A DNA stretch of 64,000 nucleotides from a virus: the IMG/VR virus record IMGVR_UViG_3300022932_000017, positions 1 to 64,000 of that record; one strand, written 5' to 3'. The notes under the pieces were generated by a model. That model was not told the DNA's origin and did not search any database. It worked only from the letters and a program-made list of their open reading frames with translations. The stretch's first letter is position 1. Every line of letters begins with the position of its first letter. Below are positions 39,878 to 48,642 of this stretch, one piece after another. The translations under genes and the position numbers were made by a program.

Positions 39878-40616
39878 CTATTTTAGGTATTCTAATCTTA
39901 GTTTTTGCTTTCTTGGAGTCGTCAATAACTAATCTTGGTTTAACATTATGGTTTTTAAAGGTTTTATCAAATCCCTCAAACATTGTTGATATTTTAGCTT
40001 TGAACTCTTTCTGGAACAACTCAAATAACTTCTGTCCCTGTAGAGTAGCGGAGTAAACAAACCCAAATCCTGCACCTCCTTTGTACTTAGCGGCTAACCC
40101 TCTTGCAACAACCCTATTTAGGGACGTTCTAAGCAACGATAAACTGTATGGCAGGAATAACACTAGGTCTTTAACATTAATCCACTCATGGCAGCATAAC
40201 ACCACTAGAATTGCAAATTCTCTTTCAGCAAGATCATTGTCTTTTGTAAACTTCTGAATAACCGGAAAGGCAATAACCCCATCCACATAGTTTGACTTCT
40301 CTAATAAGTCCCTTTTTATTTTAAGGTAGTATACATCTGTAGCACGCTCTGAAATCTTTCTTTGGTTTATAGCAGACTTCTTTAGGTACTTCTTGAATCG
40401 GTCTGTCTGAATCCTTCCTACAGTTTTTTTGTTTATGGTTTTACGGTCATCAACCTTGGCCTTCATCTTTACAATCTGCCGCCTTAAATCAGCTATGATC
40501 TTCCGGTAACGGATAGGAGCGACTCTAGGGTCATTCTGCTCAACCAAAGTCTGAAATTCCCTAGCGGTAATGTCTCCTAGTAATTCGTCTTTGTATAATG
40601 ATTGATTTTCTGTCAT
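39831..40616 (-). CDS. Winged-helix DNA-binding protein, 261 aa
   Basis: Residues about 125-205 read like a MarR-type winged helix (DLAEREFAILVVLCCHEW, SLLRTSLNRVVARGL, then AGFGFVYSATLQG as the wing). A very basic N-terminal helix (KKTVGRIQTDRFKKYLKK) and basic C-terminus flank it. It overlaps the following gene by 47 bases. It may be the DNA-recognition part of packaging or a late regulator. Confidence 0.55.
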   Translation of the reverse strand: MTENQSLYKDELLGDITAREFQTLVEQNDPRVAPIRYRKIIADLRRQIVKMKAKVDDRKTINKKTVGRIQTDRFKKYLKKSAINQRKISERATDVYYLKIKRDLLEKSNYVDGVIAFPVIQKFTKDNDLAEREFAILVVLCCHEWINVKDLVLFLPYSLSLLRTSLNRVVARGLAAKYKGGAGFGFVYSATLQGQKLFELFQKEFKAKISTMFEGFDKTFKNHNVKPRLVIDDSKKAKTKIRIPKIDENHKVVYKERKKRG

Positions 40617-41272
40617 GACTTAACCCCTATAATCTCCCTGTCTTTAAGTACAACGTATTCTTTGCCTTCGTATTGAATGACGTAATTGTTCTTGTCCATT
40701 GGCAATACGGTATCACCCACTTTAACATGCCTGTACTCCCTCGCACATTTATCAGGTACATGAGTAATTACAATAGCAAGGTCGTTCTTTATCTTTTCAT
40801 CAGACGAGGTAAGGAAGATGCCACTTTCTGTCTTAGGTGCATCTTCTAATTCCCATGTTCCAAGGAATACTCCATCATTCATTATGAATTTATCTCCTTC
40901 TATTTTGAATAGTACATGTTGAGCACCTACCAATGAAAACTCTTCTCCGGCAAACTCTACTTTGTCTTCCCATTCTTTAGCCATGTAATGCAGGAATACC
41001 ACTTCTCCTTTTGCGTATCCTTTCTCAATATACTTCTCGGAGCCGTCAGGATTAAAACCATCTCTTAGCTTACATATCGCATTGCGTTTAACTGTGGCTA
41101 CCTGTGGGTGTGTAAGGAGTTTGTTTACATTACTCTCAAATGTTCTTGCTCCCTGCTCGTCTTCACTCATTTCCCACATATCAGGACGTATAAGGTCTAC
41201 TCCGGCTAAATTAAATACCTTGTTGTGGGATACATCAAATTCTACGAATAAATTGTTGTTTATGGTCACCAT
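40613..41272 (-). CDS. Tandem GroES-like co-chaperonin, 219 aa
   Basis: The C-terminal half (about 125-219) reads like GroES: SGIFLTSSDEKIKND (matching SAGGIVLTG), a VITHVPD strand, VKVGDTVLP, then YEGKEYVVLKDREIIGV (matching the IDNEEYLIL...DILAI end). The N-terminal half repeats this plan: NNLFVEFDVSHNK, AGVDLIRP, ATVKR, KGEVVFLHYM, FAGEEFSLV, AQHVLFKIEG. Phage GroES-like proteins (T4 gp31 type) reprogram host GroEL for folding a capsid protein. The gene starts the terminase-to-head region. Double-GroES proteins are otherwise best known from plant chloroplasts. Confidence 0.65.
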   Translation of the reverse strand: MVTINNNLFVEFDVSHNKVFNLAGVDLIRPDMWEMSEDEQGARTFESNVNKLLTHPQVATVKRNAICKLRDGFNPDGSEKYIEKGYAKGEVVFLHYMAKEWEDKVEFAGEEFSLVGAQHVLFKIEGDKFIMNDGVFLGTWELEDAPKTESGIFLTSSDEKIKNDLAIVITHVPDKCAREYRHVKVGDTVLPMDKNNYVIQYEGKEYVVLKDREIIGVKS

Positions 41273-44051: not shown

Positions 44052-45635
44052 TTAAAATAACTGTGTTTGAATTTTAAATGGTTTTATCTTTTTATCTGCA
44101 ATCTTACAGTAGTCACTACTCATTTCTGAACCTACATAGTTTCTTCCTGTTCTTAATGCCATGATAGCGGTATTACCTGAACCCATAAAAGGGTCGTAAA
44201 TTAATCCTCCTTTCGGACAACCTGCGATAATTGGTTTCTTTATGAGTTCATCGTTGTAAGCAGCATAATGGGCATCCGTAGATGGTTTAGTTGGTATATC
44301 AAAAAAATCAAATTCTCTATTTAACTCTTGAGGAAATCTAAGCCTCTTTCTGTCAAGCGATCTGGTATACCCACTATAAGCATAATCATAAAAAATAGCA
44401 GCATCATTATCAACATATGATAATCTATAAGTTCCTTTTATTTTTTTTGGTGTTTGATTGTACATTCCCGTTTTATATAATCTATCAGAAACCCAAATCA
44501 ATAGTTTTTCTTTTCCAAGAAGTTCTAACCAATAACGCTCTGACCCTTTATAACCCGAATATACACCAACAGAACCGTCACCATCAAATAGTCCTCTAAT
44601 AAAAGCATATTCAAAATCATGTGATATATTAGGAACTTCCTTTGATTTATATCCCAATGACTTTAGATCCGAAACCAATTTTTGGCTGCCCAAAGTTAAT
44701 CTTACTGAACTTGTCTTATTCCTTTGCCTCTCATATATAAGATGATTATCCATTAAATCCTCTTGAAAAGATAACAAATGCTCTTTATCCTTAGTATGAA
44801 TTTCTAATTCTAGTGAGTTCTTATTAAGATACGCATCTGCCCATATAAACCCTAACCAATAAGCCTTATCATCGCTGTCTATAGTTTCAAAATAATTTTC
44901 TCTAAAAAAATATTTTCTGTTTGGATAGCTTTTTCCAGTATCCCAAAAATCAGATACAGAGCCAGGGTTCTTTCCCTTATCTTCATCACCCCAAACCCTA
45001 AAACCCTCTGAAAATTGTGATGAACCAGAACCTCTGCCATATATTTCACTTGCTTTATTCCGAATAGAAACATTGTTTTTAAGTTTATCCCTTATACCAT
45101 CCAAATCAAAATAATATTTATTGGATTTAGTCATTAAGAAAAAATACTCATGCTTCTTACTGAACCTATCTGTTACACTCTCTGGCATAGCATTCCTTTT
45201 AGCCCACACAATATCATTCCTAACCATTAAACCTCTGTCAATACATCCTATAGCGAATCTATGAGGCAATAATAACAGTGATTTGTGAATGCTTTTACTT
45301 TGCTGAACTTTAGCGCCTGAACCTGCGTGTTTTGATTCCTTTGATGAATAATCAACTGAACTTGCCATACCTCCTGATTTTGTACCATAAGTGTCTCCAA
45401 GGTTTATCCACATTGTTCCATTAGATTTTAATTTTGGTATTAATGCTTCTATCATAGACCAAAGATGCTCTAGGTATAATTCAAATGTTGGCTCTAATCC
45501 CCATTGTCCATCGTAGCCATAATCTCTAAGCTGCCAATATGGAGGCGAAGTAATTACACAATCAATAGAATCATCGTCAAACCTTTTTATGGTTTCTAAA
45601 CATGGTTCTTGGTATATTTTATTTAATTCTATCAT
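44052..45635 (-). CDS. DNA methyltransferase interrupted by a LAGLIDADG domain, 527 aa
   Basis: An amino-methyltransferase (N4-cytosine or N6-adenine) of the beta class: SPPY catalytic motif at residues 30-33 (VITSPPYWQLRDYG), target-region residues 60-232 and motif I DPFMGSGNTAIM near 485-500. Between SDFWD and IPTKPS, residues about 233-446, lies a homing endonuclease with two LAGLIDADG motifs (LGFIWADAYL and FIRGLFDGDGSV). Removing it restores SDFWD-IPTKPSTDAHY, the usual sequence of this family. Intein splice residues are absent, so the insert may stay in the protein. The host enzyme may protect phage DNA from restriction. Confidence 0.85.
   Translation of the reverse strand: MIELNKIYQEPCLETIKRFDDDSIDCVITSPPYWQLRDYGYDGQWGLEPTFELYLEHLWSMIEALIPKLKSNGTMWINLGDTYGTKSGGMASSVDYSSKESKHAGSGAKVQQSKSIHKSLLLLPHRFAIGCIDRGLMVRNDIVWAKRNAMPESVTDRFSKKHEYFFLMTKSNKYYFDLDGIRDKLKNNVSIRNKASEIYGRGSGSSQFSEGFRVWGDEDKGKNPGSVSDFWDTGKSYPNRKYFFRENYFETIDSDDKAYWLGFIWADAYLNKNSLELEIHTKDKEHLLSFQEDLMDNHLIYERQRNKTSSVRLTLGSQKLVSDLKSLGYKSKEVPNISHDFEYAFIRGLFDGDGSVGVYSGYKGSERYWLELLGKEKLLIWVSDRLYKTGMYNQTPKKIKGTYRLSYVDNDAAIFYDYAYSGYTRSLDRKRLRFPQELNREFDFFDIPTKPSTDAHYAAYNDELIKKPIIAGCPKGGLIYDPFMGSGNTAIMALRTGRNYVGSEMSSDYCKIADKKIKPFKIQTQLF
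44298..44939 (-). mobile_element. LAGLIDADG homing-endonuclease insertion within the methyltransferase
   Basis: About 642 bases, in frame, coding a domain like free-standing phage homing enzymes (ENYFETIDSDDKAYWLGFI...). The insertion is flanked on the coding strand by near-identical GATTTTTGGGATA (start) and GATTTTTTTGATA (end), 11 of 13 identical, suggesting a duplicated target. No intein splice motif and too little extra sequence for a group I intron. Confidence 0.78.
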
Positions 45636-47308: not shown

Positions 47309-47983
47309 TTAGTTCAATGGCATTAATGAATAATTCTGTTCTTCCTGAATCTCAATTATAGTTTCAAATTCATCTAACCATCTTTTCTGATTAATATACT
47401 TAGACGGATACATTTGCTTCAACCAACTCTGCTCTGGCTTTTTTAGGTAATTCAAATAATTAGGCGTTAATCTAATGCAATCTTGCTTTTGTTTTGTGGT
47501 AAGCTTTGACCATGATTTTTCACTAGAATCCCGTTCTTTTTTTAGTCCGTATAAATTCCAAAAAATTTCAAAAGAAGGTTCTTCTATGTTATTTCTTAAA
47601 GTGTTATTCTTAGGGTCAACGTCCTTTACTACCCCTAGTAAATCTAGTTGACTAGGGTAGTCAATCTCCTTTACTACCTCAACTTCTTCAATTAGATATA
47701 AAGGCTCATAAACATTGTTACCGTAATCCCCTTGTTTAGTTATCTTTTTTTGAACTACAACCAAGCAGTTATTTTTAAGTTCGTTTATAGATTTTATTAT
47801 AGTTGGTTTAGATAATTTTAAGTTTTTGCAAATTGTATTTATAGAAGGATAGCATGTAGCCTTATCTCCTGCGTAGCTAACTAAAAGTGCATATAAAGCT
47901 TTTGCATTGGCGCTAATTGCATCGCTTGTCATTATATCTCTCTGTATCATACCAAATCCCTCTTTTATTCTTGCTGTCCTCAT
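47309..47983 (-). CDS. Replication-type helix-turn-helix protein, 224 aa
   Basis: Residues 8-90 form a winged helix common in phage replication proteins (GFGMIQRDIM, AKALYALLVSYAGDKATCYPS, NLKLSKPTIIKSINELKNN). The C-terminus includes WNLYGLKKERDSSEKSW, resembling the replication-module HTH protein tails. It ends 4 bases before the ATPase gene, suggesting helicase loading or origin recognition. Confidence 0.7.
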   Translation of the reverse strand: MRTARIKEGFGMIQRDIMTSDAISANAKALYALLVSYAGDKATCYPSINTICKNLKLSKPTIIKSINELKNNCLVVVQKKITKQGDYGNNVYEPLYLIEEVEVVKEIDYPSQLDLLGVVKDVDPKNNTLRNNIEEPSFEIFWNLYGLKKERDSSEKSWSKLTTKQKQDCIRLTPNYLNYLKKPEQSWLKQMYPSKYINQKRWLDEFETIIEIQEEQNYSLMPLN

Positions 47984-48642
47984 ACGTATTGTGGGTTTTT
48001 AAGGTTATTTAAATCATCTGCCCCATAAACAAGGTCTCCATGAGTTATTATGGTATTTCTTTGCTCTAGTAGATCGTTTAAAGCATCTAATCTAAATTGC
48101 CTCCATTCTTTTAATGGATAATATTTATTCATATAATCTTCTTTATATTCAAGATCGCTCATGTTTTTATATTTTAAAAAATTTAAATAATACCATTGAA
48201 CATCACCAAATATCAATTTAGGTTCTAAAGAAGAGCAATTACATGAAATTACATATTCATGAGTTACGATAGTAGGCATAGTATTATGACCATTTTTATA
48301 TATTGATGGGAACTCTATACTTGACCTTGTGTATTTCTCCTTTCCTAGGTTGTCATATTTATCTGGATATACTTCCCAAACCGGAGAATGATTTTCGTGT
48401 TCATAAGTAAATTCAGGTTCTTCTTTTTGGTGTTCTTTTGCATGGCAACTTGCGCATATTGTTTCTAATTCTTCCAATTTAACATCCCAAGGATTTCCTT
48501 TATAGGAATTATGGTGTACATGTAGAGTGCTTTTATCGTCTCCGCATCTTAAACATGTGAAACTATCTCTACTAAGAACCTCTAATCTTTTTTTCTGCCA
48601 CCTAGGATCAAGTAATTTTTCTTTATATGTAGTCTTTGTCAT
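47980..48642 (-). CDS. HNH nuclease, 220 aa
   Basis: HNH motif with zinc-binding Cys pairs: CLRCGDDKSTLHVHHNSY and, later, LETICASCHAKEH. The N-terminal YKEKLLDPRWQKKRLEVLSRD is standard for phage HNH proteins. The following 130 residues are of unknown function. ATGA overlap with the HTH gene. Could be a homing or replication-linked nuclease. Confidence 0.82.
   Translation of the reverse strand: MTKTTYKEKLLDPRWQKKRLEVLSRDSFTCLRCGDDKSTLHVHHNSYKGNPWDVKLEELETICASCHAKEHQKEEPEFTYEHENHSPVWEVYPDKYDNLGKEKYTRSSIEFPSIYKNGHNTMPTIVTHEYVISCNCSSLEPKLIFGDVQWYYLNFLKYKNMSDLEYKEDYMNKYYPLKEWRQFRLDALNDLLEQRNTIITHGDLVYGADDLNNLKNPQYV

Follow-up and report, generated by a model that had tools for sequence, protein, structure and literature searches.

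Homing endonucleases are thought to require a self-splicing intron or intein to reside in conserved genes. The locus described here raises the question of how such a nuclease could lodge in frame within a phage DNA methyltransferase (MTase) gene, and whether it is spliced out or made as part of the enzyme. The stretch of DNA analyzed (the window) covers 64,000 nt of a 73,820-bp IMG/VR virus record. Its minus strand carries at 44052..45635 a stop-free ORF for a 527-aa beta-class DNA methyltransferase with an in-frame LAGLIDADG insert. Pfam detects in the product a single N6_N4_Mtase domain (PF01555, residues 24-514, E 8e-40), into the middle of which falls a match to LAGLIDADG_3 (E 2.6e-6). PHROGs assigns the outer parts of the protein to the phrog_67 DNA methyltransferases (E 9e-49) and residues 239-433 to the phrog_4645 endonucleases, with E 5e-38 for the whole protein and 9e-39 for the insert alone.

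The amino-terminal part of the MTase (residues 1-232, 44940..45635, minus strand) ends in NPGSVSDFWD, shares 54-67% identity with uninserted homologues, and spans motif IV (TSPPYW, 45534-45551) to motif VIII and the variable target-recognition region. The carboxyl-terminal part (residues 447-527, 44055..44297, minus strand) starts with IPTKPS, is mostly 52-68% identical to the same homologues, and holds motif X (HYAAYNDEL) and motif I (DPFMGSGN, 44172-44195). This order of motifs, IV to VIII, target-recognition region, X and I, with SPPY early and the DPFxGSG signature (here DPFMGSGN) late, assigns the enzyme to the beta class of N6/N4 MTases.

The surroundings of the ORF are those of a tailed-phage replication region: neighbouring genes encode a DnaB-like ATPase, an HTH protein that resembles replication initiators and an HNH protein, and genes for terminase and portal follow downstream. 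The HNH endonuclease-like protein (47980-48642, minus strand) is encoded two genes from the DnaB-like ATPase. At 40613-41272 (minus strand) a 219-aa protein has a GroES-like (Cpn10) domain restricted to its carboxyl terminus (residues 143-217), leaving about 140 amino-terminal residues without explanation. Many of the closest cellular records are Bacteroidetes MAGs, so that a Bacteroidota host is plausible for this phage.

A preliminary description of the locus, made from the sequence alone, had placed a LAGLIDADG domain between SDFWD and IPTKPS and taken SDFWD-IPTKPS as the uninterrupted sequence of the family. It proposed alignment with uninterrupted MTases to place the exact junctions, and considered that the homologues might all carry the segment natively. 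Related MTases were collected from viral contigs (49 loci and 80 more, repeats included) and from bacterial genomes (24 loci); removal of duplicates reduced 115 MTase loci to 65 distinct proteins. Alignment positions the insert at 44298..44939 (minus strand), exactly 642 nt or 214 codons (residues 233-446), and bears out both the location and the family sequence. All 65 distinct homologues are uninterrupted, with DFW followed by 1-4 residues and then T/S-K/A; their shared pattern can be written DFW[D/A/N/E/K]-x-x-T-[K/A], and 29 of them have exactly DFWDIPTK. As none of the 65 carries the segment, it is not a native target-recognition domain, and that reading is ruled out.

The insertion point falls in the most conserved stretch of the MTase gene. 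DFW is invariant in an alignment of 40 sequences (40/40) and, at the nucleotide level, 31 of the 55 distinct empty sites have GATTTTTGGGAT without a mismatch; in three loci (L003, L176 and L180) the identity continues beyond it to GATTTTTGGGATATACC. The empty site is present in the closest syntenic phage relative (L002), which shares about a dozen ORFs with the window in conserved order. Judged by sequence comparison with the intact homologues, the 642-bp segment was inserted precisely and in frame.

Other copies of the filled site were sought in several ways. A direct search with the junction peptide finds no other copy of the insertion, nor does a search with the insert alone. The pattern W-D followed by KAYWLGF gives 15 matches, none of them in an MTase of the window family, and no second filled copy is present in the 80 further MTase loci (repeats included) or in 396 Bacteroidota genomes. 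A chimeric locus produced by an assembly that joined a nuclease gene into the MTase gene would fit this lack of other copies and the origin of the sequence from a single metagenomic contig. We regard such an artefact as highly improbable: both junctions are in frame, the two halves belong to one MTase gene with nothing missing, the neighbourhood agrees with that of L002, and the G+C content of the insert (31%) is near the phage value (36%).

If the insertion is real, the insert could leave the protein or the RNA by splicing. Inteins are typically seen as an in-frame LAGLIDADG domain inserted at a conserved protein site, a feature shared by the window insert. LAGLIDADG-bearing inteins differ from it in having a splicing domain and splice residues, both of which are missing here. 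No Hint/intein block is detected in the 527-aa ORF at E<=1 in Pfam or NCBIfam. The insert starts with T-G-K and finishes with F-F-D followed by Ile at position +1; there is neither a Cys/Ser/Ala at position 1, nor a terminal His-Asn, nor a Cys/Ser/Thr at +1, as had been noted initially. Without a Hint domain and splice residues an intein is rejected. Even a degenerate or non-canonical one, formerly or still splicing, is barely credible, the nearest kin of the insert being non-intein nucleases without Hint domain, intron-borne or free-standing.

Excision from the RNA was assessed from the possible splice junctions. In group I introns U ends the 5' exon and G ends the intron, and group II introns begin with GUGYG. 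All in-frame junction pairs near the insert ends were screened: five restore SDFWDIPTKPS, and none of the five obeys the U...G rule or has a GUGYG 5' end. This lack of valid splice junctions speaks against an intron. The nuclease core takes about 600 of the 642 nt and only about 40 nt lie outside it, too little space for a ribozyme, in agreement with the initial statement that a group I ribozyme has no room; overlaps between ORFs and group I cores in the list of PMC3073962 reach at most 81 nt.

Several relatives of the nuclease do reside in split genes, which gives some ground to a cryptic group I (or II) intron whose ribozyme, hidden in the coding sequence, would remove the insert from the RNA. 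Elements bearing a phrog_4645-type nuclease split a recD-like helicase gene of Bacillus phage PJN02, recA of Staphylococcus phage Quidividi and an SNF2-like helicase gene; these three classes of split gene are seen in L051, L055 and L056, respectively. Rfam has no match in the window, and it is equally blind to these three introns even at E<=1. Since introns with the same nuclease family are missed too, the silence of Rfam is given no weight. A cryptic intron remains very unlikely in view of the little sequence outside the core when compared to the known overlaps, of the unsuitable restoring junctions and of the frame of the insert, which stays open through all 214 codons. The preliminary description had left three readings side by side: the tolerated domain insertion is supported as the most likely, while the degenerate intein and the unusual intron are not supported, for want of a Hint block and of a valid junction, respectively.

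The insert itself has the hallmarks of a homing endonuclease. Its LAGLIDADG core (about residues 239-440, 44316..44921, minus strand) matches positions 91-300 of the 308-position phrog_4645 profile and has two LAGLIDADG motifs with their catalytic Asp retained: KAYWLGFIWADAYL (residues 257-270, 44826..44867, minus strand), which reads ADA rather than ADG, and AFIRGLFDGDGSV (residues 344-356, 44568..44606, minus strand). This core match and the two motifs identify it as a phrog_4645 member. Profile positions 1-90, corresponding to the amino-terminal HTH part that is usual in the family and not essential, are missing. The insert starts at the conserved core (NRKYFFRENYFETIDSDDKAYWLGF) and ends soon after the conserved LDRK, with TGKSYPN and NREFDFFD forming linkers outside the nuclease core proper. 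Of 33 conserved positions, the nuclease departs from the consensus at 3. Its activity could be weakened by Gly268Ala in the first motif, by the loss of about 6 residues and by a Lys/Glu difference close to residue 333.

AlphaFold modelling with nuclease relatives gives a pLDDT of about 95 for the nuclease core, with values of about 90-97 for residues 241-430, flanked by low-confidence linkers (up to 236 and 441-453). In the PDB the best fold match of the predicted insert structure is I-Tsp061I, and I-AniI and other LAGLIDADG enzymes are also among the best; a PDB sequence search with the insert gives no significant match. There is no in-frame ATG, GTG or TTG between residues 178 and 287 and, assuming canonical starts, the nuclease would therefore be made solely within the MTase chain.

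The nearest relatives of the insert are two-motif phage LAGLIDADG endonucleases with about 30-43% identity, like those of the PJN02 recD and Quidividi recA introns, Streptomyces phage Jada gp204 and crAss-like cr116_1, which belong to the same nuclease family. Its 80 nearest kin are all stand-alone ORFs, several within split genes, and most have an HTH of about 50 aa ahead of the core start RKY...FxxIDxEEKAYWLGF. The window copy shares with them the core from RKY...F(E/D) to (L)xRK; unlike these separate ORFs it has neither a start of its own nor the HTH that most of them possess at the amino terminus. In the nuclease tree the insert forms a long branch (2.25) and no supported group includes it.

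Two arrangements among related nucleases are of interest in their own right. One clade of stand-alone nucleases of the phrog_4645 type, represented by L057 (2824-4498) and about 20 other loci (L059-L106), is encoded directly upstream of a different beta-class MTase gene; the nuclease gene of L057 overlaps the MTase gene, and the nuclease-MTase gene pair is conserved. A human-gut phage contig (L052, 2222-3229) encodes a related nuclease with one in-frame stop between two homologous halves, for which stop-codon recoding is possible.

The preliminary description had also reported 13-base near-repeats flanking the insert, and these are present. The 5' copy, GATTTTTGGGATA (44939..44951, minus strand), is native MTase target sequence, and the 3' copy, GATTTTTTTGATA (44297..44309, minus strand), overlaps the end of the insert and the carboxyl-terminal part of the MTase. 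The two are identical at 11 of 13 positions and spaced by 642 nt. Ten of the final 12 nt of the insert are identical to the end of the preceding exon, a score reached in that register by 0.02% of inserts shuffled with a first-order Markov model. This suggests that the target was partly duplicated by the insertion event, although the near-repeat could alternatively reflect selection for a DFWD-like segment on either side of the insert. Translational bypassing as in T4 gene 60, considered solely on account of the near-repeat, is unnecessary given the length of 642 nt and the intact ORF.

We favour as the probable explanation an unspliced, lone endonuclease gene that inserted into an orphan phage MTase gene and is made with it as one polypeptide. 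A two-motif LAGLIDADG homing-endonuclease gene of the phrog_4645 family, whose members are intron-borne or free-standing, would have entered the orphan beta-class MTase gene in frame at both ends, with no self-splicing carrier and without its usual HTH domain. It probably arrived when a break was repaired, either at the nuclease's own cut site or close to it. The insert may persist since the frame is intact and since it sits in a loop that leads from the target-recognition region to motif X. Translation would then yield one 527-aa polypeptide from whose loop the nuclease bulges as an autonomous domain, while the halves of the MTase still fold with each other. The gene might be tolerated either because the MTase is still functional or because orphan MTases are dispensable.

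The nuclease would cut MTase alleles with an intact GATTTTTGGGATATACC region, and recombination would copy its gene into the break; its own copy would be immune, the site being split. We infer homing of this insert by analogy, because no second filled allele was found. Splitting of the own site is the general basis of self-immunity of homing elements. The preliminary description saw in the locus a striking self-protecting design; such self-protection is common to homing elements in general and not special to this locus, and the cleavage of empty alleles would be part of that same scheme.

The state of the MTase bears on how the insert is tolerated. The flanks resemble intact homologues about as closely as the intact homologues resemble one another, all MTase motifs are retained and the frame is uninterrupted. 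At 130 near-invariant positions the window MTase has 8 changes, versus 5 in L002, 4 in L003 and 6 in L032. Most of the 8 are conservative, the exception being Trp136Leu. An MTase-rich AlphaFold model has a confident core assembled from both halves (residues 1-30, 61-80 and 470-520), and its Foldseek matches, which span the insert, are to M.MboIIA, M.BceJIV, CcrM and the RsrI and PvuII MTases. With mean pLDDT values of 65 and 55, the two models are of modest quality over the whole chain, so that modelling supports tolerance of the insert by the MTase, short of proof.

The insertion may instead have killed the MTase, the gene of a dispensable orphan enzyme persisting only as a vehicle for the nuclease. 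This is unlikely on balance, yet it carries appreciable weight. The insert divides an invariant stretch adjoining motif X, the Trp136Leu change affects an otherwise near-invariant position, and orphan MTases are patchily distributed among phages (PMC9957025). Against inactivation speak the undecayed flanks, with a number of near-invariant changes little above the 4-6 of the nearest kin, the catalytic motifs and frame that are all preserved, and the core that assembles from both halves in the model; a recent lethal hit to the MTase would, though, look the same.

Another conceivable outcome is a domesticated enzyme in which the nuclease came to serve the MTase as a module for targeting or cutting DNA, a single chain that would resemble a restriction-modification system. 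The insert lies where the target-recognition region meets motif X, the motifs of nuclease and MTase are both intact, and related MTases (L015, L029, L040, L008) have other accessory domains nearby. The fusion is a single case conserved in no relative, and LAGLIDADG sites are long and rare, as argued for Taj gp79 (PMC9957025). Domestication thus appears improbable, and we attribute a similarly slight chance to a working 527-aa bifunctional chimera with a co-opted nuclease and both activities dependent on the fusion.

The accessory domains of these relatives are a separate feature of the MTase family. An inserted domain (EHRQGMH...EHWYR...GFAFPS), about 120 aa long and different from the nuclease, lies immediately ahead of GKNPG in the MTases of L015 (2293-3525), L018 (1866-3098), L029 (6186-7484), L040 (4646-5920), L043 (6001-7296) and L137 (3285-4577), and a similar one is located after CNKCGKPREK in L008 (4471-5841). 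The same kind of accessory module apparently occupies two sites within one MTase family. L137 (3285-5032) and L008 (3715-5841) each have a tandem pair of beta-class MTase genes on one contig; both members of the L137 pair are of the window MTase subfamily, one of them with the accessory domain.

Returning to the lone endonuclease gene within the MTase, the preliminary description had proposed that the domain insertion may be novel. Its kind is already published. A lone LAGLIDADG endonuclease is reported in actinophage DNA methylases, among them Akhila gp67 and those of F-cluster mycobacteriophages such as Taj gp79 (Gosselin et al. 2023, PMC9957025), and a later paper restates that no intein and no intron was detected for the Taj gp79-type insert (Arsenault et al. 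2025, PMC11855218). The ShiLan domain is a hidden-HNH insertion in the same methylase family as Taj gp79 (PMC11855218).

On re-examination Taj gp79 shows PF01555 together with LAGLIDADG_1 (PF00961) at residues 63-160 and, compared to the uninserted PopTart gp63, its insert lies shortly after motif IV. The sequence features of this kind of insertion, an in-frame stop-free nuclease at a conserved site that is missing from homologues, are present in the window. In both proteins a LAGLIDADG domain sits in frame and uninterrupted within an N6/N4 methylase of a phage (PF01555, phrog_67); no intein or intron is detected in either, the nuclease resembles those of group I introns, and uninserted homologues are common. 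They differ in the nuclease, a single-motif LAGLIDADG_1 domain of about 139 aa in Taj gp79 versus a two-motif LAGLIDADG_3/phrog_4645 insert of 214 aa in the window, and in the site, soon after motif IV versus past the target-recognition region and ahead of motif X. The near-repeat flanking the window insert sets it further apart from Taj gp79, and the window MTase is only distantly related to it, with short matches only.

The ShiLan insertion resembles that of the window in being a selfish insertion into a phage methylase, open in the host frame and with no detectable splicing element, the insert being presumably kept in the protein. Its HNH nuclease is hidden in another frame, whereas the window nuclease occupies the host's frame. 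No hidden HNH ORF as in ShiLan is found in the window insert, whose out-of-frame open stretches are of 22-66 aa.

The window locus is thus a second, independent instance of a known phenomenon, published for other phages in 2023; it is considered independent because the nuclease subfamily, the site and the MTase lineage all differ from those of Taj gp79. This suggests that phage methylases repeatedly offer unspliced nucleases a permissive place to settle. The locus now provides a clean pair of empty and filled sites together with a candidate target, GATTTTTGGGATATACC and its flanks, making simply testable the question of whether the full-length chimera both methylates and cuts DNA.
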